This document shows, piece by piece, positions 3,623 through 63,629 of a stretch of 64,000 nt of DNA. The stretch spans positions 434,001 through 498,000 of the forward strand of contig NZ_FNRF01000003.1 of the NCBI RefSeq assembly GCF_900107775.1, written 5' to 3'. The position numbers and the translations under genes are program-made. Under the pieces are notes generated by a model. The model was not told the origin of the DNA. It worked only from the letters and a program-made list of their open reading frames with translations, and ran no database searches. The stretch's first letter is position 1; every line of letters starts with the position of its first letter. The DNA comes from Xylanibacter ruminicola. Its GTDB lineage: Bacteria > Bacteroidota > Bacteroidia > Bacteroidales > Bacteroidaceae.

Positions 3623-3704
3623 GAAAAGTAGGTTTTCGCACAGCAAAAAGTAACTTTTCGGTCCCTAAAAAGTAGCTTTTCAGTATGCAAGAAGTTACTT
3701 TTCG
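3623..3704. repeat. Array of four 16-base palindromic units at exact 22-base period (locus 1)
   Basis: Units lie at 3623-3638, 3645-3660, 3667-3682 and 3689-3704, separated by unrelated 6-base spacers (cacagc, gtccct, gtatgc). The consensus is RAAAAGTARCTTTTCG; each unit is a near-perfect palindrome with GAAAAG and CTTTTC arms. The fourth unit supplies the in-frame stop (TTA on the plus strand at 3695-3697) of the GH97 remnant read from the other strand. A second four-unit array with the same period lies at 47705-47786. Confidence 0.9.
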
Positions 3705-11851: not shown

Positions 11852-11880
11852 AACATTGAACATTGAACATTGAACATTGA
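11852..11880. repeat. Four tandem heptamers (AACATTG) upstream of pgk
   Basis: AACATTG is repeated four times without interruption (11852-11879). Read on the minus strand it is TTCAATG-type, the same heptamer family found at 42218, 52587, 56863 and 62833-62925. Confidence 0.9.
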
Positions 11881-11948
11881 TTATTTAATTCTTTTTTGCG
11901 CTCAACTATCAATTATGTAAGCAAAATGTTCAAAAGTATAGCAAATTG

Positions 11949-38394: not shown

Positions 38395-39694
38395 CGACGC
38401 CAACAAATTCGACGGTTCTGTCATCGTCGAAGATTCTAAGATAACTAAGATTGTAGAAGGAAACACCGTCCCGAACGCATCATTCGACGAAGTGATTGAT
38501 GCTTCGGGATGTTTCGTTCTTCCCGGTCTGATTGATGATCATGTGCACTTTCGTGAGCCAGGCTTAACTGCCAAGGCCGATATCGATAGCGAGAGTAGGG
38601 CAGCAGCTGCAGGTGGCGTTACCACCTATTTTGACATGCCCAACTGCGTGCCGCAGACTACCACCCTCGAGGCCCTCGACGAGAAGTTTAAGCTGGCCGC
38701 TCAGAAAAGTCACGTCAACTATAGTTTCTTTTTCGGTGCCACCAACGATAATGTCGATCTGTTTTCGCAGCTCGATGTGCATCGTATTCCTGGCATCAAG
38801 CTCTTCATGGGCAGTTCAACGGGTAACATGCTCGTGGATCGTCGTGAGGCCTTAGAGAAGATATTCTCTACCGCCCAGATGCCTATCATGGTGCATTGCG
38901 AGGATACCGACATTATTAACCGCAATATGGCCGAGGCTAAGCGCCTGTATGGCGACGACCCTAAGGTAACCCATCACCCCGAGATTCGTAGCGTTGAGGC
39001 CTGCTATCAGAGCACCAGACTGGCTGTAGAGCTTGCCCTGAAGCACCATGCCCAGCTGCACATCGCCCACCTCACTACGGCCAAGGAGTTAGAGCTCCTT
39101 CCTCCTTCCTCCTCCCTCCTTCCTCCAATTACTGCCGAAGTTACGCCTTCGCACCTCTATTTCTGCGATCGCGATTACAATGCCTTAGGCACGCGTATCA
39201 AGTGCAACCCTGCCATCAAGTCGGCAGCCGATCGCGATGCTCTGCGTCAGGCTGTGGCCGATGGGCGTATCGCTGTGATTGGTACCGACCATGCGCCCCA
39301 CCTGTTAGAACAGAAAGAGGGAGGCTGCTGTAAGGCTGCCAGTGGCATGCCCATGCTGCAGTTCTCGTTGGTAACCATGCTTGAGCTGGTGGATAAGGGT
39401 GTGCTCACCATCGAGCGTTTAGTTGAGCTGATGTGCCATCGCCCAGCCGATTTGTTCGGCGTGCGTAACCGTGGCTATCTGCGCGAGGGCTATCAGGCCG
39501 ACATCGTGATTGTGCGTCCTAATGCCGCTTGGACCGTAACCAAGGATGTGATTCAGAGCAAGTGTGGTTGGAGTCCGATGGAGAACCATACCTTCCTGTG
39601 GCGTGTGGAACAGACCCTTTGCAATGGTCATACCGTTTACAAGGATGGTGTTGTGGATACCAACTATATCGGTCAACCCGTACAGTTTAGATGA
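38360..39694 (+). CDS. pyrC: Dihydroorotase
   Basis: This 444-residue cytoplasmic zinc enzyme closes carbamoyl-aspartate to dihydroorotate in pyrimidine synthesis. The metal-binding DDHVHFREPG (about 57-66), the carboxylated-Lys motif GIKLFMGSSTGN, the His ligands in MVHCEDTD and HIAHLTTAKE, and the catalytic Asp in IGTDHAPHL are present. It is the class I, allantoinase-like type. A period-7 microrepeat (39095-39126) encodes the odd loop LLPPSSSLLPP at about residues 246-256, in a variable position between conserved strands, so activity is probably kept. The start lies inside the DUF4369 gene and the stop overlaps the MetH-domain gene. Confidence 0.94.
   Translation: MKRLILHGTLVNDANKFDGSVIVEDSKITKIVEGNTVPNASFDEVIDASGCFVLPGLIDDHVHFREPGLTAKADIDSESRAAAAGGVTTYFDMPNCVPQTTTLEALDEKFKLAAQKSHVNYSFFFGATNDNVDLFSQLDVHRIPGIKLFMGSSTGNMLVDRREALEKIFSTAQMPIMVHCEDTDIINRNMAEAKRLYGDDPKVTHHPEIRSVEACYQSTRLAVELALKHHAQLHIAHLTTAKELELLPPSSSLLPPITAEVTPSHLYFCDRDYNALGTRIKCNPAIKSAADRDALRQAVADGRIAVIGTDHAPHLLEQKEGGCCKAASGMPMLQFSLVTMLELVDKGVLTIERLVELMCHRPADLFGVRNRGYLREGYQADIVIVRPNAAWTVTKDVIQSKCGWSPMENHTFLWRVEQTLCNGHTVYKDGVVDTNYIGQPVQFR
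39095..39126. repeat. Tandem heptamers (CTCCTTC) inside pyrC
   Basis: CTCCTTC, CTCCTTC, CTCCTCC, CTCCTTC, then CTCC, in exact 7-base register. The same heptamer occurs inside the MFS gene at 57236-57263. Confidence 0.9.
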
Positions 39695-42217: not shown

Positions 42218-42245
42218 GTTCAATGGTCAATGGTCAATTTTCAAT
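42218..42245. repeat. Four tandem heptamers (GGTCAAT type) between plsC and the glycosyltransferase gene
   Basis: GTTCAAT, GGTCAAT, GGTCAAT, TTTCAAT. On the minus strand the repeat encodes the final IEN and the TGA stop of the glycosyltransferase. Confidence 0.9.
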
Positions 42246-42983
42246 TTTCGGATAGCGGCGTGTCCATCCATCCCAGCGCAACTTCATCACGCCAAAGAAT
42301 GCCTCGCCGAATATGCCACCGCTCATCTTGCTCACACCCTCCTGTCGGTTCACGAATATCACGCTTACCTCCTTGATCTTAAAGCCAATCTTGTAGGCAG
42401 TGTACTTCATTTCTATCTGGAAGGCATAGCCCTTAAAGCGAATCTTATCCAGTTCGATGGTCTGCAGTACGCGGCGCTTGTAGCACTTAAATCCTGCAGT
42501 AGTGTCGTGTACGTTAAAGCCCGTAACCAAGCGCACGTATTTCGATGCAAAGTAGCTCATCAGCACACGTCCGATAGGCCAGTTAACCACGTTCACACCG
42601 CTCACGTAGCGACTGCCGATAGCCACATCGTAGCCCTCGTCTTTGCAGGCTGCATACAGTCGTGGCAGATCGTTGGGATCGTGACTAAAGTCGGCGTCCA
42701 TCTCAAATATGTATTCGTAGTCGCGCTCCAGTGCCCACTTAAATCCGGCAATGTAAGCTGTTCCCAGTCCCAGTTTGCCGCTACGTTCCACCAGGTGCAG
42801 CTGTCCGCCAAACTCGTTGGCCATCAGGCTACGCACAATGGCAGCCGTACCGTCAGGCGATCCATCGTCGATCACCAGTATATGGAAACTCTTCTCCAAC
42901 CCGAATATCGCGCGTATAATCTTCTCGATATTCTCCTTCTCATTATAGGTTGGTATGATAACTATACTATCGCTTTGCTTCAT
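42234..42983 (-). CDS. Polyprenol-phosphate mannosyltransferase-like glycosyltransferase (GT2, DPM1 type)
   Basis: This 249-residue cytoplasmic or membrane-surface enzyme moves a sugar from a nucleotide donor to a polyprenyl phosphate. GT2 motifs are VIIPTYNEKENIEKI (about 7-21), VIDDGSPDGTA, FEMDADFSHDP (metal-binding DxD) and the DPM1-like DTTAGFKCYKRRVL and GYAFQIEMKY. There is no C-terminal membrane helix, unlike some relatives. The ATG at 42983 is used because an upstream TTG at 43007 coincides with the -7 box. The last codons and stop come from a heptamer repeat. It leads a likely operon with plsC and the phosphoesterase. Confidence 0.88.
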   Translation of the reverse strand: MKQSDSIVIIPTYNEKENIEKIIRAIFGLEKSFHILVIDDGSPDGTAAIVRSLMANEFGGQLHLVERSGKLGLGTAYIAGFKWALERDYEYIFEMDADFSHDPNDLPRLYAACKDEGYDVAIGSRYVSGVNVVNWPIGRVLMSYFASKYVRLVTGFNVHDTTAGFKCYKRRVLQTIELDKIRFKGYAFQIEMKYTAYKIGFKIKEVSVIFVNRQEGVSKMSGGIFGEAFFGVMKLRWDGWTRRYPKIEN

Positions 42984-47527: not shown

Positions 47528-47713
47528 ATGGAGTACATAACTTGTACGCGTTGCGGGCAAACGCTGCCGCGCAGCAAATTAGAACGTATGAAGACGGGCA
47601 CCTACCGCCGTGTGTGCAACCACTGCAAGTGGCTGTACTACGTAAAGCCCAGTCGCGACCGGCGCATCCTGCGCGACTTGGAGGCGCGCCACCACCATCC
47701 CAACAAAAAGTAG
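47528..47713 (+). CDS. Small zinc-ribbon protein
   Basis: This 61-residue basic protein has four Cys in two pairs, CTRCGQ (about 6-11) and CNHCKW (about 31-36), separated by 23 residues. It therefore likely binds one zinc and nucleic acid. It begins one base after the primase-helicase stop and is part of that operon. The stop codon TAG (47711-47713) is provided by the first unit of the repeat array at 47705, and the last residues NKK are also repeat-encoded. Confidence 0.7.
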   Translation: MEYITCTRCGQTLPRSKLERMKTGTYRRVCNHCKWLYYVKPSRDRRILRDLEARHHHPNKK

Positions 47714-47786
47714 CTTTTCGCCCTCCGAAAAGTAACTTTTCACCCATCAAAAAGTAGCTTTTCGATGCATGAAAAGCTACTTTTTA
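47705..47786. repeat. Array of four 16-base palindromic units at exact 22-base period (locus 2)
   Basis: Units lie at 47705-47720, 47727-47742, 47749-47764 and 47771-47786 with 6-base spacers ccctcc, cccatc and atgcat. The unit AAAAAGTAGCTTTTCG is the same as at locus 1 (3623-3704). The first unit carries the TAG stop of the zinc-ribbon gene. Confidence 0.9.
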
Positions 47787-51712: not shown

Positions 51713-54700
51713 ATGAAGATAGAAGAACTAGAGAAGGTATATGCCAAGTTGCCACAGGTGGCGGCGCTGGCTCATGAGATTGAAAATGCGGCAACACGAC
51801 GTATTTTCCTTGAGGGGCTGTTGGCCTCGAGTGCACCCATGTTGTTTGGAAGTCTGGCTGCTAAGTGTAAGTCGCCCATCCTGTTTATACTGCAGGATGC
51901 CGAGGAGGCGGGCTACTTTTATCACGACCTGACACAGCTGTTGGGCACCCGACGGGTGCTGTTCTTCCCAAGCAGCTACCGTCGTGCCATCAAGTACGGA
52001 CAGCTTGATTCGGCCTCACAAATCCTGCGCACTGAGGTGATGACACAGATCGACAAATCGGTGTTCATCGTAACCTATCCCGAGGCTCTGGCCGAAATGG
52101 TGGTGCCTAAGCAAACGCTTAACGACCGTACGGTGGTGATTGAGAAAGGGCAGGAGGTGCCCGTGGGAGATATCACCAAGCAGTTGCGCGAGTTGGGCTT
52201 TAACGAGGTGGACTACGTGTACGAGCCCGGACAGTTTGCGTTGCGAGGTTCTATCCTCGACGTGTACAGCTACAGCTGCGAGTACCCGTATCGTATCGAC
52301 TTTTTTGGCGACGATGTGGAGAGCGTGCGCACCTTCCAGGTGGAGGATCAGCTCTCACTGGATGCCCGTGACAGGGTAGAGATAGTGCCCGAACTGGAGG
52401 CCGACGAGGCTGCCCAGGAGCCGTTCCTGTCGTTGTTGCCCCAGGATACCATCATTGCCACCAAGGACTATCTGTATGTGCGCGATGCCATCGATGCCGC
52501 TTTCCAGGAGGATATGCCGCTGGTAACAGGCGTGCAGTTTATGCATCAGGCTGAGGGCTTCCGCAGGATTGAGTTCGGTCATCGCCAGTCAATGGTCAAT
52601 GGTCAATGGTCAATGATCAGCTTCCACATCACCATTCAGCCTCTGTTCCACAAGAACTTCGAGATGCTGTTTCAGGCTTTCGACAACTATCTGCATAAGG
52701 GCTACCAGGTGTATATACTGGCCGACAGCGCCAAGCAGAACGAGCGCTTGAAGGATATCTTTGCGCAGCGCGCCGAAAACGAGGGCGAGCATGCACAGAT
52801 ACGTTTTACACCGGTAGATAAGACACTGCACGAGGGTTTTATCGACGACGACCTGAAGGTGTGCTTCTTTACCGACCACCAGATATTTGACCGTTTCCAC
52901 AAGTACAACCTGAAGAGCGACAAGGCCCGTAGCGGAAAGATGGCGCTGACGCTGAAGGAGATACAGCAGTTTGAGATTGGCGACTACGTGGTACACGTGG
53001 ATCATGGTGTGGGACGGTTCGGCGGACTGGTACGTATGCCGCAGGGCGATGGCTATCAGGAGATGATCAAACTCACCTATCAGCATGGCGATGCCATCTA
53101 CGTGAGCATCCACTCGCTGTATAAGGTGGCCAAATACAAGTCGCAGGATAATGGCGAGGCACCACGACTCTCTACCTTGGGTACGGGACAGTGGGAACGC
53201 CTGAAGGAGCGCACCAAACAGCACATTAAGGAGATTGCGCGCGACCTGATAAAACTGTATGCCAAGCGTAGGAAGGAAAAGGGCTTTGCCTTTAGTCGCG
53301 ACTCGTATATGCAGCACGAGCTGGAGGCATCGTTCCTGTATGAGGACACGCCCGACCAGTTGAAGGCTACACAGGATGTGAAGGCCGATATGGAGAAGGC
53401 ACGTCCGATGGACCGACTGGTGTGCGGCGATGTGGGCTTTGGTAAGACCGAGGTGGCTGTGCGTGCAGCCTTTAAGGCCGCCGTGGATGGTAAGCAGGTG
53501 GCTGTGCTGGTGCCTACTACGGTATTGGCCTATCAGCATTTCCGTACGTTCAGCAACCGACTGAAGGACATGCCTGTAACGGTGGATTACCTGACACGTG
53601 CACGTACCACTAAGGATACCAATCGCATACAGAAGGATCTGGCCGAGGGTAAGATAGATATCATCATCGGCACACACCGACTGATCAGCAAGAGCGTGAA
53701 GTTTAAGGACCTGGGATTGCTGATTATCGACGAGGAGCAGAAGTTCGGCGTGTCAACCAAGGAAAAGCTGCGCCAGATGAAGACATCGGTAGATACGCTT
53801 ACGATGAGTGCTACACCTATACCACGTACGTTGCAGTTCTCGCTGGTGGGCGCACGCGATCTGAGTGTGATACAAACGCCACCACCTAACCGCTATCCGA
53901 TACAGACCGAGATCCACACCTTTAGTCCGGAGATTATTGCCGAGGCTGTGAACTACGAGATGAGCCGAAACGGACAGGTGTACTTTGTGAACAACCGCAT
54001 AGCCGATTTGCAGCATATAGCCGAGATTATACAGAAGTACGTGCCCGATGCGCGTATATGTATCGGACACGGACAGATGAAGCCCGAGGAACTGGAAAAG
54101 ATTATCCTCGACTTCTCGAACTACGATTACGACATACTGCTCTCGACCACTATCGTTGAGAACGGTATCGACATACCTAATGCCAATACCATCATTATTA
54201 ATGGTGCCCACAACTTCGGACTGAGCGATCTGCACCAGATGCGCGGACGTGTGGGACGTGGCAACCGCAAGGCCTTCTGCTATCTGCTGGCACCGCCACT
54301 CTCGGCATTGAATCCTGAGAGTCGCCGACGACTGGAGGCCCTGGAGAACTTCTCCGACTTAGGTTCGGGCATTAACATCGCCATGCAGGATCTGGATATC
54401 CGTGGTGCCGGAAACCTGTTGGGTTCGGAGCAGAGCGGCTTTATTGCCGATTTGGGCTACGAAACGTACCAGAAGATATTGAGCCAAGCAATGAGTGAGC
54501 TTAAAAACGAAGAGCCCGAATTCCTAGCTTCGGCCGAATCGGCCGCTTCAGCGGCAGACTCTGCCGCTGGAAAAACTAGCCCGGCTAGCCTGGCTAGTGA
54601 TACAAGTAATATCTCCTGGGTTGATGACTGTGCACTGGATAGCGATATCGAGATGTACTTCCCCGATCAGTATGTGCCGAGCGATTCGGAGCGTATGCTG

Positions 54701-56557: not shown

Positions 56558-57823
56558 TTAGCGTACGGTAGGATTGAGGTTGCGGCGCAGGAAGAAGGCG
56601 CGCGTAGCCAGGAAATATGTGGCTACACCCGTACCGTTAACGAGTACTACCGTCCAGAAAGCTGCGCTGTAGCTAATCAACTCGGCTACGATACCACCAA
56701 CCAGAATTCCTAATCCCATACCGATATCCCACGAGATAAGGATGGTACTGTTGGCAGTGCCACGCTGTTTGTTGGTGGCCACATTGATGGTCATGTTCTG
56801 GAACGCAGGCCACATATGACCGTTGCCCAAACCAATCAACAATGCGGAACCATAGTAGCCGATGAACATTGACCATTCTTGCCTTGCAAGCCAGCAGAGC
56901 TGGAGCGGAACATTGACCATGGAACATTGAGTTAGCGTTGGCATTAAAATGAACAATGTGTAGCCTACCAGGGAGATGACCATACCGGTAGCGGCGTTAT
57001 GGGTTACACGACCTTCGCGGAGGGCTTTGCTGCCTTGCAGGCGACTGAGGATAAGACCTACTGAGCACAGCATGAAATAGGTGCCTGTGCCACCGGTAAT
57101 ACCCATAACCTCCTTACCATAAATGGCCAGATAGTTGCTAAGCACACCAAAGCTAAAGCCAAAAGCCACCATGTTCAGGCCCAACAGCCAGCCACGTGTA
57201 AGAAAGAAGCGGTCTAATGAGAGAGTTGAACAATTCTCCTTTCTCCTTCCTCCTTCGTCCTTCCTCGATAAATCAACGGTTGAGTCGATCAGCCAGCCTG
57301 TAGTGGCCACGATAAGCGCTAGCCAGAACAGAACTTCGAAGCTGTTGGTAAGCTGGTAGATGAAAATGCCGATGGTGGGTGCGATGGCCATGGCTAGGTT
57401 GTTACTCAAGCCGTAATAGCCGATACCCTCGGTACGTCGACTGCTGGGCAGCACATCGATGGCTACTGTGGCATTGGCCGTGGTAACTGAGCCGAAGGGA
57501 CCGCCATGCAGCGTGCGCACAATGGTGAACAGCAGCAGGGTAGAGGCGGCCAGATAGCCTGCAAAGAAGATGGCAAACAAACCGAAGGCTATCATGAGCA
57601 CTGTTTTGCGGGGGAACGTATCTACCACATAACCACTGAATGGACGCACCAGCAGGGCGGTAATGGTATAGCCCGAGAGTACCAGTCCGATTACATCCTT
57701 AGTAGCGCCGAAATGCTCGCTCAGGTAGAGCGGCAGCAGCGGTGTAAGCACGTAAAAGGCAAAAAACAACGTAAAGTTGGCTGCCATCACCTTGCAGTAG
57801 TTCCTATTCCAAAGTCTGTCCAT
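56558..57823 (-). CDS. Major facilitator superfamily transporter, drug/arabinose-efflux type
   Basis: This 421-residue inner-membrane protein has about twelve helices and the loop FGATKDVIGLVLSGYTITAL with RPFSGYVVDTFPRK, typical of MFS efflux carriers. The substrate is unknown. The gene carries two kinds of microrepeat: CTCCTTC heptamers at 57236-57263 give the loop EGGRRKENCSTL (about 187-196), and heptamer clusters at 56863-56930 give CSMVNVPLQLCW and EWSMF (about 298-320). Both fall in loops between helices, so the protein may still fold. The ATG at 57823 is preferred over a TTG at 57835. A -7 box lies at 57855. Confidence 0.85.
   Translation of the reverse strand: MDRLWNRNYCKVMAANFTLFFAFYVLTPLLPLYLSEHFGATKDVIGLVLSGYTITALLVRPFSGYVVDTFPRKTVLMIAFGLFAIFFAGYLAASTLLLFTIVRTLHGGPFGSVTTANATVAIDVLPSSRRTEGIGYYGLSNNLAMAIAPTIGIFIYQLTNSFEVLFWLALIVATTGWLIDSTVDLSRKDEGGRRKENCSTLSLDRFFLTRGWLLGLNMVAFGFSFGVLSNYLAIYGKEVMGITGGTGTYFMLCSVGLILSRLQGSKALREGRVTHNAATGMVISLVGYTLFILMPTLTQCSMVNVPLQLCWLARQEWSMFIGYYGSALLIGLGNGHMWPAFQNMTINVATNKQRGTANSTILISWDIGMGLGILVGGIVAELISYSAAFWTVVLVNGTGVATYFLATRAFFLRRNLNPTVR
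56863..56930. repeat. Two heptamer clusters flanking a hairpin inside the MFS gene
   Basis: GAACATT-GACCATT (56863-56877) and GAACATT-GACCATG-GAACATT (from 56908) flank a stretch with the CCAGC/GCTGG hairpin (56891-56903). The heptamers are the TTCAATG family in inverse orientation. Confidence 0.75.
57236..57263. repeat. Four tandem heptamers (CTCCTTC) inside the MFS gene
   Basis: CTCCTTT, CTCCTTC, CTCCTTC, GTCCTTC, the same heptamer as inside pyrC (39095-39126). Confidence 0.9.
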
Positions 57824-60526: not shown

Positions 60527-60563
60527 CTCACAAAAATCGAGTATAACTAAACCCAAGAGCCCT

Positions 60564-63500
60564 ATGCTAAACGAATTCTTATCAGAACTTCGGCGATTCA
60601 TGCCTGCCGAGCGCATTTACACCGACGAGCTACGTACCTTAGGTTGGGGTACCGACGCCAGTTTTTATCGCCAGATTCCGAAGGTAGTGCTTCGTAGTGA
60701 TGGTGAGGAAGAGATATCAAAGATTGTACAGTTGTGCGATAAGTATAAACTGCCCTTTACCTTCCGTGCTGCTGGCACATCGCTCTCAGGACAGAGCTGT
60801 ACCGACAGCGTGCTCATTGTGGCTGGCAAGCATTGGGAGAAATATACACTCTCGGAAAATGCCGAAAGCATCAAACTGCAGCCTGGTATAGTAGGGGCGA
60901 GGGTTAATCAGATACTGAAGCCTTATGGACGCGTGTTCCCACCTGATCCGGCATCTATAGGTGCTGCCATGGTAGGTGGTATCGTGGTAAACAATGCATC
61001 GGGTATGAACTGTGGCGTGCATGCCAATAGCGACCGTATGCTGCTGTCGGCGCGTATCATCCTGACCGATGGTACGGAGCTGGATACTGGCGACCCGGTG
61101 AGTCGCGAGGTATTCAAGAAACAACATCCTGATTTTATCTCTAAGATCGAGGCACTGCGTGACAAGGTACGTGCCGATCAGGAGCTGACCGATCGCATTA
61201 CCAAGAAATACAGTATTAAGAACGTAACGGGTTTGAATCTGCGCCCACTGGTGGCTTACGACGACCCGTTTGATATCATCGCACACTCTATCGTAGGTAG
61301 CGAGGGCACACTGGCCTTCCTGTCGGAGGTAACGATGAAAACACTGAAGGACTATCCGTTCAAGGCATCGGCCATGGTTTACTTTATGACCATGAAGGAG
61401 AGTTGTGAGGCTGTGGTGGCTATGAAGAAGCTGAAGGCTGGCGACGAAGACCTGGAGATGAGCGCCGAGAACCTGATGGTGAAGAGTGCAGAGATGCTCG
61501 ACTATAAGTCGCTCTCGTCGGTTGATGATCCCGTTTATCTGCAGTATAAGCAGGATGTGGATGCCGGTAAGATTGAGGGCGTGCAGCCTGGCGATTACCA
61601 TAACTTGACGGCTATACTGACCGAGACCAAGGGTATTACCCACGATCAGCTGCTGATGAAGATCGAGAAGATCAAGGAGTGCTTAGGGGCATTCAAACTC
61701 TATATTCCTGCTGAGTTTACCGAGGATCCGGCGGTGTACGGTAAGTACTGGGCTATCCGTAGCGGTATATTCCCATCGGTAGGTGGTACACGTCCGGTAG
61801 GCACCTCGTGCCTGATTGAGGATGTGGCATTCCCCATCGAGAGTCTGCCTGAGGCTACGGTGAAGTTGCAGAAGCTGATAGCCGATCATGGCTACGACGA
61901 TGCTTGTATCTACGGTCATGCCTTTGAGGGTAACTACCACTTTATCTTGAATCAGAGCTTTGCCGATGAGCACGAGGTGGCCCGTTATGCCGAGATGATG
62001 CGCGATGTGGCTAAGCTGGTGGTTGAGGGCTACGACGGTAGTTTGAAGGCAGAGCACGGTACAGGTCGCAACATGGCACCGTTTGTGAAGTATGAGTGGG
62101 GTGAGAAGGCCTACGAGGTGATGAAGGAGCTGAAGTCTATCTTCGACCCGAACGGACTACTGAACCAGGGTGTGATATTCAACGACGATCCCGACTGCTT
62201 TATTAAGTGTCTGAAGCCGCTGCCAGAGTTGGATTACGACTTCAAGAGTGTGCCTGATGGCGGACACTACCTGATGGATCACAAGCTGAGTACAGCCAAG
62301 GAAACCATCGAGCAGGTGAAGCGTGCCAACAAGTGTATTGAATGCGGATTCTGCGAGGTTAACTGTATGTCGTGCGGACTCACACTATCTTCTCGTATGC
62401 GTATCGCCGTACAGCGCGAGATTCGTCATCTGATTAAGACTGGTGAGGACGACGAGCGCTTGGAGCGCCTGCAGAAACAGTATAAGTACTATGGCGATCA
62501 GACCTGTGCTACCGATGGCTTGTGTTCAACCTCATGCCCCATGAAGATTAATACGGGCGAGCTGACACACCTGATTCGTCAGATGGATATGAACACGCGT
62601 CCGTTGGGCTACTGGGTGGGCGATTATGCATCCAAGCATATGGCGGGCATCAAGAGCGGACTGCGCGTAGTGCTCGACGTGGCACATGCCGCACACGTCA
62701 CACTCGGTCCGACACTGATGACTACCGTATGTCGTACGATGAACAAGATGGGCCTGCCACTCTGGACTACCGCTATGCCTAAGAAGCATCGCCAGCCCAA
62801 GAAGAGCGACCTGACGCAGTTTATCATTAATTCCATTGACCATTCACCGTTGACCATTGACCATTCTGCTGCGCAAACAGAAGATAAAAATGTTCAATGT
62901 TCAATGTTCAATGTTCAATGTTCAAAGGTGGTTTACTTCCCCAGCTGTATCAATCAGACCATGGGACAGTCGAAGAGTGGCGGCAAGATTCACGACCTGG
63001 TGGATGAGGTGATACAGTTGATGGCTAAGGCTGGCTACGAGGTAATCTTCCCAGAGGGCATGGAGCGTATGTGCTGTGGCCAGATATGGGAGAGTAAGGG
63101 TATGCTGGATATTGCCGACCGTAAGAGTGCCGAACTGGAGGCAGCCCTGTGGAAAGCCAGCGAGGAGGGTAAGTATCCTGTGCTGTGCGCCCAGAGTCCG
63201 TGTCTGCACCGTATGAAGAAGGTGATGCATAAAATGCATCTTTATGAGCCTGCTGAGTTTATTATGAAGTTCCTGGTACCTCGATTGGATTTCCATCCTA
63301 TCGACCGTCATATAGCACTACACCTGACGTGTTCTACCCGACAGATGGGTGTAGATAAGGATATGATAGCCTTGGCTAAGCTGTGCTCAAACAACGTGTT
63401 CCTGCCCGAGGGTGTGGGCTGTTGCGGTTTTGCTGGCGACAGAGGCTTTACCTTCCCTGAGCTGAATAAGTACGGATTGCGCAAGCTGCGCCCACAGATT

Positions 63501-63629
63501 GAGGCTAACCATATCGAGGTGGGCTACTCTAACAGTCGTACCTGTGAGATCGGTCTCGAATCGAACACAGGCATACCTTATATGAGTATTGTGTATCTGG
63601 TAAATGAATGTACAACAACTAAAAAATAA
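60564..63629 (+). CDS. FAD and iron-sulfur D-lactate dehydrogenase (GlcD-GlcF fusion type)
   Basis: This 1021-residue membrane-associated or cytoplasmic enzyme oxidises D-lactate or a similar 2-hydroxyacid. Its parts are an FAD-binding domain (about 35-190; FRAAGTSLSGQS and PPDPASIGAAMVGG), an FAD-oxidase C-terminal domain (about 210-530; KAEHGTGRNMAPF) and a two-cluster ferredoxin part (CIECGFCEVNC, CATDGLCSTSCP, about 592-670). Two CCG motifs end it (MCCGQIWES and GCCGFAGDRG). Between the ferredoxin and CCG parts, inverse heptamer clusters (62833-62925) encode a repeat-derived linker at about 757-788. The start at 60564 lies after the promoter. The neighbouring lactate permease supports lactate as substrate. 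Confidence 0.92.
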   Translation: MLNEFLSELRRFMPAERIYTDELRTLGWGTDASFYRQIPKVVLRSDGEEEISKIVQLCDKYKLPFTFRAAGTSLSGQSCTDSVLIVAGKHWEKYTLSENAESIKLQPGIVGARVNQILKPYGRVFPPDPASIGAAMVGGIVVNNASGMNCGVHANSDRMLLSARIILTDGTELDTGDPVSREVFKKQHPDFISKIEALRDKVRADQELTDRITKKYSIKNVTGLNLRPLVAYDDPFDIIAHSIVGSEGTLAFLSEVTMKTLKDYPFKASAMVYFMTMKESCEAVVAMKKLKAGDEDLEMSAENLMVKSAEMLDYKSLSSVDDPVYLQYKQDVDAGKIEGVQPGDYHNLTAILTETKGITHDQLLMKIEKIKECLGAFKLYIPAEFTEDPAVYGKYWAIRSGIFPSVGGTRPVGTSCLIEDVAFPIESLPEATVKLQKLIADHGYDDACIYGHAFEGNYHFILNQSFADEHEVARYAEMMRDVAKLVVEGYDGSLKAEHGTGRNMAPFVKYEWGEKAYEVMKELKSIFDPNGLLNQGVIFNDDPDCFIKCLKPLPELDYDFKSVPDGGHYLMDHKLSTAKETIEQVKRANKCIECGFCEVNCMSCGLTLSSRMRIAVQREIRHLIKTGEDDERLERLQKQYKYYGDQTCATDGLCSTSCPMKINTGELTHLIRQMDMNTRPLGYWVGDYASKHMAGIKSGLRVVLDVAHAAHVTLGPTLMTTVCRTMNKMGLPLWTTAMPKKHRQPKKSDLTQFIINSIDHSPLTIDHSAAQTEDKNVQCSMFNVQCSKVVYFPSCINQTMGQSKSGGKIHDLVDEVIQLMAKAGYEVIFPEGMERMCCGQIWESKGMLDIADRKSAELEAALWKASEEGKYPVLCAQSPCLHRMKKVMHKMHLYEPAEFIMKFLVPRLDFHPIDRHIALHLTCSTRQMGVDKDMIALAKLCSNNVFLPEGVGCCGFAGDRGFTFPELNKYGLRKLRPQIEANHIEVGYSNSRTCEIGLESNTGIPYMSIVYLVNECTTTKK
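62833..62925. repeat. Two opposed heptamer clusters inside the D-lactate dehydrogenase gene
   Basis: Five CCATTGA-type heptamers (62833-62867) are followed, after 23 bases, by five perfect TGTTCAA heptamers (62891-62925) in the opposite orientation. The frame stays open through both. Confidence 0.9.

Follow-up and report, generated by a model that had tools for sequence, protein, structure and literature searches.

Heptamer clusters in a D-lactate-dehydrogenase-like gene of Xylanibacter ruminicola form a palindromic cassette that recurs in unrelated genes

Two opposed heptamer arrays and a core occupy an interdomain linker

We analyzed a stretch of 64,000 nucleotides of the Xylanibacter ruminicola contig NZ_FNRF01000003.1, in the following called the window. 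Near its end, an open reading frame on the plus strand (60561–63629) encodes a predicted FAD-linked oxidase with an Fe-S part, in which the Pfam scan found FAD_binding_4, FAD-oxidase_C and Fer4_8 (residues 589–663) and a GlpC-type model matched the C-terminal part (residues 817–1011). None of the NCBIfam equivalog models for GlcD, YdiJ and D-lactate dehydrogenase reached its cut-off; D-lactate dehydrogenase is hence a plausible but putative name, and we abbreviate the gene and its relatives as LDH. An AlphaFold2 model was of no use for locating the linker discussed here (mean pLDDT 40.8).

Two heptamer clusters lie in the linker between Fer4_8 and the GlpC-type part. Tandem Repeats Finder (TRF) described the left one (62833–62865, plus strand) as a CCATTGA array of 4.7 units with 84% match, and the right one (62889–62925, minus strand) as an AATGTTC array of 5.3 perfect units (100% match), inverted with respect to the left. 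This confirmed the opposed clusters that the first-pass annotation of the window had reported. Both arms belong to a single heptamer family, TGAMCAT, and are 81% complementary over 32 nt. Between them lies a core (62866–62888, plus strand; CTGCTGCGCAAACAGAAGATAAA), the first 12 bases of which are common, by alignment, to copies in other genes. The host frame is open across both clusters (NSIDHSPLTIDHSAAQTEDKNVQCSMFNVQCSK), which bears out the earlier proposal of a repeat-derived linker that is read in frame. In the second unit of the left arm, CATTCAC, the frame reads TCA where a perfect unit would give an in-frame TGA.

In its full form the element measures about 95–100 nt and consists of about 32 nt of CATTGAM units, followed by a core 23–30 nt long that begins with CTGCTGCGCAAA, and then by the inverted array. 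We conclude that the two opposed clusters and the core are one protein-coding palindromic cassette and not independent clusters. The earlier description of heptamers tolerated inside a gene thus holds as to frame and repeat origin and is otherwise incomplete, because arms and core make up a composite cassette that recurs in unrelated genes.

Linkers of LDH relatives

We compared the linker with the best 80 of 252 LDH loci found; one of the six search patterns had been taken from the insert itself, and L009, L010, L015 and L036, i.e., the window's own gene or relatives already counted, were left out of the 80. The linker measured 42–48 nt in 49 of these relatives and 51–105 nt in 31, compared with 99 nt in the window. 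We looked among them for orthologues with an unrelated linker of equal length and found none. The nearest relative, L039, has no array; it is 97% identical over the whole protein and 99% identical in the tree columns without the linker. L040, L043 and L046 carry opposed TGAMCAT arms round the same core as the window gene, and in L088 and L096 the opposed arms are built from another heptamer (AGAGGGG with CCTCTCA or CCTCTCC). A different inverted-repeat insert, which encodes an LTPNPSPKGEG-type peptide, sits in the same linker in five of the 80 relatives (L075, L083, L085, L095 and L097) and needs five separate changes on the LDH tree.

Near-identical relatives with cassette-free linkers were available for two carriers, i.e., L039 for the window gene and L063 for L040. 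The 60-nt windows flanking the linker are 0.97–1.00 identical between L040 and L063 and the linkers differ; the old linker had been replaced and not just split, and no target-site duplication was seen in this pair. Simple insertion is therefore an inadequate description, and of the insertion named in the first-pass annotation what stands is that the linker is longer than in most relatives.

The cassette could also have entered this gene when rumen species exchanged LDH alleles by homologous recombination, with no new insertion. The four LDH carriers sit on separate branches and have the same core at the same position, and L040 and L063 differ almost solely in the linker, both of which would agree with such an exchange. 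However, carriers are not unusually similar to each other in the 60 nt on either side of the linker (identity 0.70 on the left and 0.82 on the right for the window gene and L043), so that any exchange tract would be almost confined to the linker, and the copies in other genes would be left unexplained. We regard exchange of LDH alleles as rather unlikely. A single origin of the LDH cassettes by descent was rejected: on a quick tree of 81 rows with SH-aLRT only, the four carriers need four changes, no fewer than with shuffled labels.

The cassette is read in one frame in unrelated genes

Samples of 398 or 150 congeneric genomes, drawn from a larger group, were searched for copies. With at most one mismatch, the core CATTCTGCTRCGCAAA had matches in 95 of the 398 genomes, many of them single-mismatch matches without heptamers; 50 of the core loci were read, some being the same place found twice. 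The exact core occurs at 11 places in the 398 genomes, and all 11 lie between TGAMCAT arms inside long open reading frames and are read in one frame (HSAAQ type).

Pfam assigned the 14 copies that we examined to six unrelated families: LDH (four; the window, L040, L043 and L046), OEP/TolC-like (four; L127, L329, L333 and L342), the Y-family polymerase family IMS (two; L326 and L332), RsgA (two; L334 and L335), an NRPS with the cassette at the edge of its Condensation domain (L328), and CobT (L331). The gene frame is stop-free in all 14 copies and is the sole stop-free frame of six in nine of them. Throughout, the core is read in one frame as HSAAQ, HSATQ, HFAAQ or YSAAQ. In RsgA, the insert (query residues 230–258) maps between residues 220 and 223 of 1u0l, a relative of known structure.

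Thirteen copies were aligned; L334, whose arms run into sequence resembling the J sequence described below, was omitted. Full left arms have CATTC in their second unit, by which the in-frame TGA becomes TCA or TCT, with the exception of L342, which has CATGGA instead. A heptamer array gives the same peptide cycle (H*PLTID) in every frame; the argument for a single frame is therefore based on the core and on the constant place of the stop-free unit within the arm, and evidence from the arms by themselves was dropped. The left arm differs by 21 nt, i.e., three heptamers, between lineages (L046 versus the other LDH copies, and L332 versus L326).

One may ask whether selection for a DNA or mRNA hairpin, of the REP or BIME type and serving pausing or protection, maintains the inverted arms, with the protein insert as a side effect. 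The arms are complementary, the NRPS copy has an A-type unit in both arms and L043 a C-type unit in both, and inverted pairs of heptamer arrays are reported for Xanthomonas in the available part of PMC4692102. Yet covariation of the arms is weak, with one of 12 predicted pairs changed on both sides and this very pair broken in four of 13 copies; moreover, the right arm is largely missing from L331, as is the left arm from L046 and L332. Hairpin selection was rejected on the weak covariation, and we consider this explanation improbable.

A search with a cassette peptide of 30 residues yielded 119 rows from 40 of the 398 genomes. Merging left 98 places, of which 86 lie in a stop-free frame 200 aa or more in length and 12 do not. 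Some of the weaker matches share the arms and have another core, hence the 98 places count arm-type cassettes and not identical copies. We read 30 of the peptide loci and scanned 20 carrier ORFs, of which 15 had Pfam families at E ≤1e-8 and five had none. Further Pfam carriers found were Asn synthase, LeuA type, TRCF, HerA, GH2, GH94, alpha-L-fucosidase, pullulanase and others. Genome G143 has repeated palindromes (L283 and L285) in which TGAMCAT arms of about 33 nt enclose a different 16-nt core of GCTGGCGCATCGGAGG type.

Single heptamer arrays in the window and in the own genome

Outside the cassette, TGAMCAT arrays of at least three units were found at exactly four places of the window, the number given in the first-pass annotation, compared with one array per strand in the reversed-sequence control. 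By pattern search and gene calls from ORFs and codons, the first lies between predicted genes (11854–11881, plus strand) and the second at a predicted-gene junction (42219–42246, minus strand). The third is a single TGACCAT array inside a TRCF/Mfd-type gene identified by Pfam (52588–52615, minus strand); the cassette peptide also occurs in the TRCF genes of two relatives (L355 and L370, Pfam). The fourth, inside an MFS transporter gene on the minus strand (56561–57787), is an array split by a 33-nt sequence that we call J (56880–56935, plus strand), in which the family array itself occupies 56911–56931.

Genome-wide, AATGTTCAATGTTC had 114 matches with at most one mismatch versus one in the reversed control, and exact KTCAATGKTCAATG had 78 versus none. 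Sampled own DNA contained 59 arrays, among which there were three close pairs; single arrays are the rule, and in all three close pairs the arrays face each other. According to home-made gene calls from ORFs and a codon score, counted by hand, 41 of the 59 arrays lie between predicted genes, many a few bases from a stop or start, and 13 of the 18 intragenic ones are in stop-free orientation. The core is not a frequent element of the own genome: CTGCTGCGCAAA gave 36 matches with at most one mismatch versus seven in the control, and 20 further regions that we read (19 for the core, one for J) had no heptamer arms round a core. Among the own-genome regions read, the cores with heptamer arms are those of the LDH and TolC-like copies only.

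Could the clusters then be ordinary heptamer microsatellites, made by slippage in place in a tolerant linker and opposed by chance? Period-7 arrays are abundant in the genus, since TRF gave 80 period-7 rows with 39 distinct units for the best 80 of 252 LDH loci plus the window (737 kb), compared with two rows in one Markov shuffle; in addition, single arrays are usual in the own genome and arm length varies by whole heptamers. However, a core and a stop-free left arm common to six unrelated gene families contradict slippage for the cassette, if not for single arrays, and the close pairs all point at each other. Moreover, among 63 array segments in 269 kb of own DNA (none in the reversed control), starts are spread and 43 end in ...CATT; free slippage would not give arrays that stop at one particular base of the unit. 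Slippage appears very improbable as the source of the cassette.

The common end suggests that arrays spread as units with a defined end, though not generally, and fixed-base ends in some genomes would fit a templated or enzyme-defined synthesis. As a general rule, fixed ends were rejected: they are strong in the own genome and in G143 (13 of 16 at CATT or CATTG), G044 uses another phase, G115 shows little of them, and arrays elsewhere were too few.

J contains a small hairpin and interrupts heptamer arrays at five places of the own genome, four of them exact and one with one change; a sixth match with three changes is probably due to chance. Its hosts include the MFS gene of the window, TolC-like, GH2 and QueH-type genes and one more locus (L127, L145, L146 and L183). 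Of 150 congeneric genomes, 44 contain its 21-nt middle when at most three mismatches are allowed, and a common variant alters both hairpin sides in a compensatory way (CCAGC-AGA-GCTGG to CGAGC-AGA-GCTCG).

The Y1_Tnp genes of the own genome (five matches) are not adjacent to heptamers or J, and for this reason we rejected the view that either of these represents REPs that belong to a Y1 transposase. The arrangement that marks REP/RAYT systems, an element flanking a Y1_Tnp gene, was not found for the cassette. Of the features that mark MITEs, i.e., terminal inverted repeats, a target-site duplication and a cognate transposase, the inverted arms are present; no duplication was seen between L040 and L063, where the linker is replaced, and among transposases the comparison covered the Y1_Tnp genes, which are not adjacent. 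At L253 (G000:C8 near 319320), a Y1_Tnp gene bears GGGACAGGTTCCTGT-type palindromes at both ends, which are not the cassette and likely form a REP pair with the gene.

A proposed selfish element inside protein-coding genes

We propose, with a probability of about 0.8, that the clusters make up the two arms of a single palindromic, protein-coding cassette that is shared with unrelated genes in one frame and would spread selfishly. Its distribution points to mobility and its open frames to translation. Copies may be made by an enzyme or by recombination between heptamer arrays; in the loci compared, no mobilising enzyme, target duplication or movement was seen. In the one frame read, the left arm has lost its TGA stops, mostly by TGA to TCA, so that loops and interdomain linkers gain about 30 residues. 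Copies that land out of frame or within a structured region would be lost, and surviving cassettes may persist as nearly neutral linkers. The arms can shift in length by three heptamers (21 nt, seven codons) with the frame kept.

In its features, the cassette works like the Rickettsia palindromic elements (RPE). RPE and the Wolbachia palindromic elements are described, in the available parts of PMC10969869, PMC2229807 and PMC3767692, as palindromic repeats of 100–150 bp that lie in unrelated ORFs, leave the frame intact and add an exposed peptide, and orthologues may bear different elements of this type at or near the same site. The cassette is likewise a dispersed inverted repeat, slightly shorter with its full arms; it has in-frame copies in several unrelated conserved genes, and frame and peptide are conserved in all copies examined. 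It differs in that it occurs in Prevotella/Xylanibacter (Bacteroidota) and in that its arms are tandem heptamers also found alone at gene junctions.

Heptamer arrays as such have been described. GGGAATC heptamers of Xanthomonas and Nostoc form dispersed arrays, mostly of four units, and two genomes have 70 and 75 close pairs that converge; in contrast to the cassette, they are G-rich and mostly intergenic (89% and 93%), and the available text of PMC4692102 mentions neither a shared core nor a coding cassette in one frame. TAACTGA direct repeats of Beggiatoaceae, cyanobacteria and five Bacteroidetes form heptamer arrays at gene junctions, a few inside ORFs, with stops in all frames one way and open frames the other; theirs is a different heptamer in direct repeats, with one indirect repeat in the main genome, and no dispersed palindromic cassette appears in the available text of PMC4679880. 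The arms, as dispersed tandem heptanucleotides, fit heptamer tandem repeats of the STRR type, which the core does not. Short tandem repeats, reportedly heptamers, are said to be tolerated inside a conserved RNA gene, whereas here protein genes are concerned.

In the literature searched, which covered few subscription papers, we found such a cassette described neither for Prevotella nor for other Bacteroidota. To our knowledge, protein-coding palindromes are known mainly from Rickettsia and Wolbachia, i.e., from intracellular bacteria. About 100 detectable places in a free-living rumen and gut genus would show that the joining of selfish DNA to working enzymes is not peculiar to reduced genomes, and the cassette shows how repeated DNA can join working proteins. 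As RsgA, CobT, asparagine synthetase and LDH can be assayed and near-identical relatives without the insert exist, its cost or benefit is directly testable.

Heptamers differ between species at the same sites

The period-7 rows from the LDH loci were of similar size, with 45 of the 80 being 29–36 nt long. Inside LDH genes, the linker (4.6 kb in total) accounts for 19 rows and a turn near residue 118 for six, and 239 kb of LDH sequence contained no others; a further 12 lie upstream of LDH. Differing heptamer arrays stand upstream of the LDH start in L066, L087, L102, L111, L114, L117 and L118, just before a T-rich stretch and what we take to be a TAnnTTTG-like box of the promoter region. In relatives of the MFS gene, the loop that holds the window's array has TCAATGK (L229 and L230), TCAATTA (L231), TCACTCT-like units (L232, L235 and L238) or TCACTTT (L240), and it is short in L242–L251. 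Arrays of other heptamers thus fill the same LDH linker, promoter and transporter loop in other species.

It is conceivable, if doubtful, that a genus-wide process in Prevotella sets heptamer arrays, each about 32 nt long, at permissive sites that are fixed, i.e., gene junctions, promoter spacers and protein loops, with the heptamer varying by species and site and length persisting; palindromic protein-coding cassettes would be its composite form. The swapping of heptamer types at the same sites offers a comparative handle on the origin of bacterial heptamer arrays, which have long been noted.

Units with TGA on a strand make up 21 of the 39, whereas about 21% would be expected for random heptamers; we rejected the notion that all heptamers contain a stop codon, as this count is suggestive only and the units may be related by descent. 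In G008, the reversed control of the heptamer pattern gave 41 matches, hence the heptamer of this genome seems to be GTAACTK. The window holds two arrays of a second heptamer family, CTCCTTC (39095–39126 and 57236–57266), as well as 22-nt repeats with AAAAGTAGCTTTTCG units (3624–3681 and 47699–47784).
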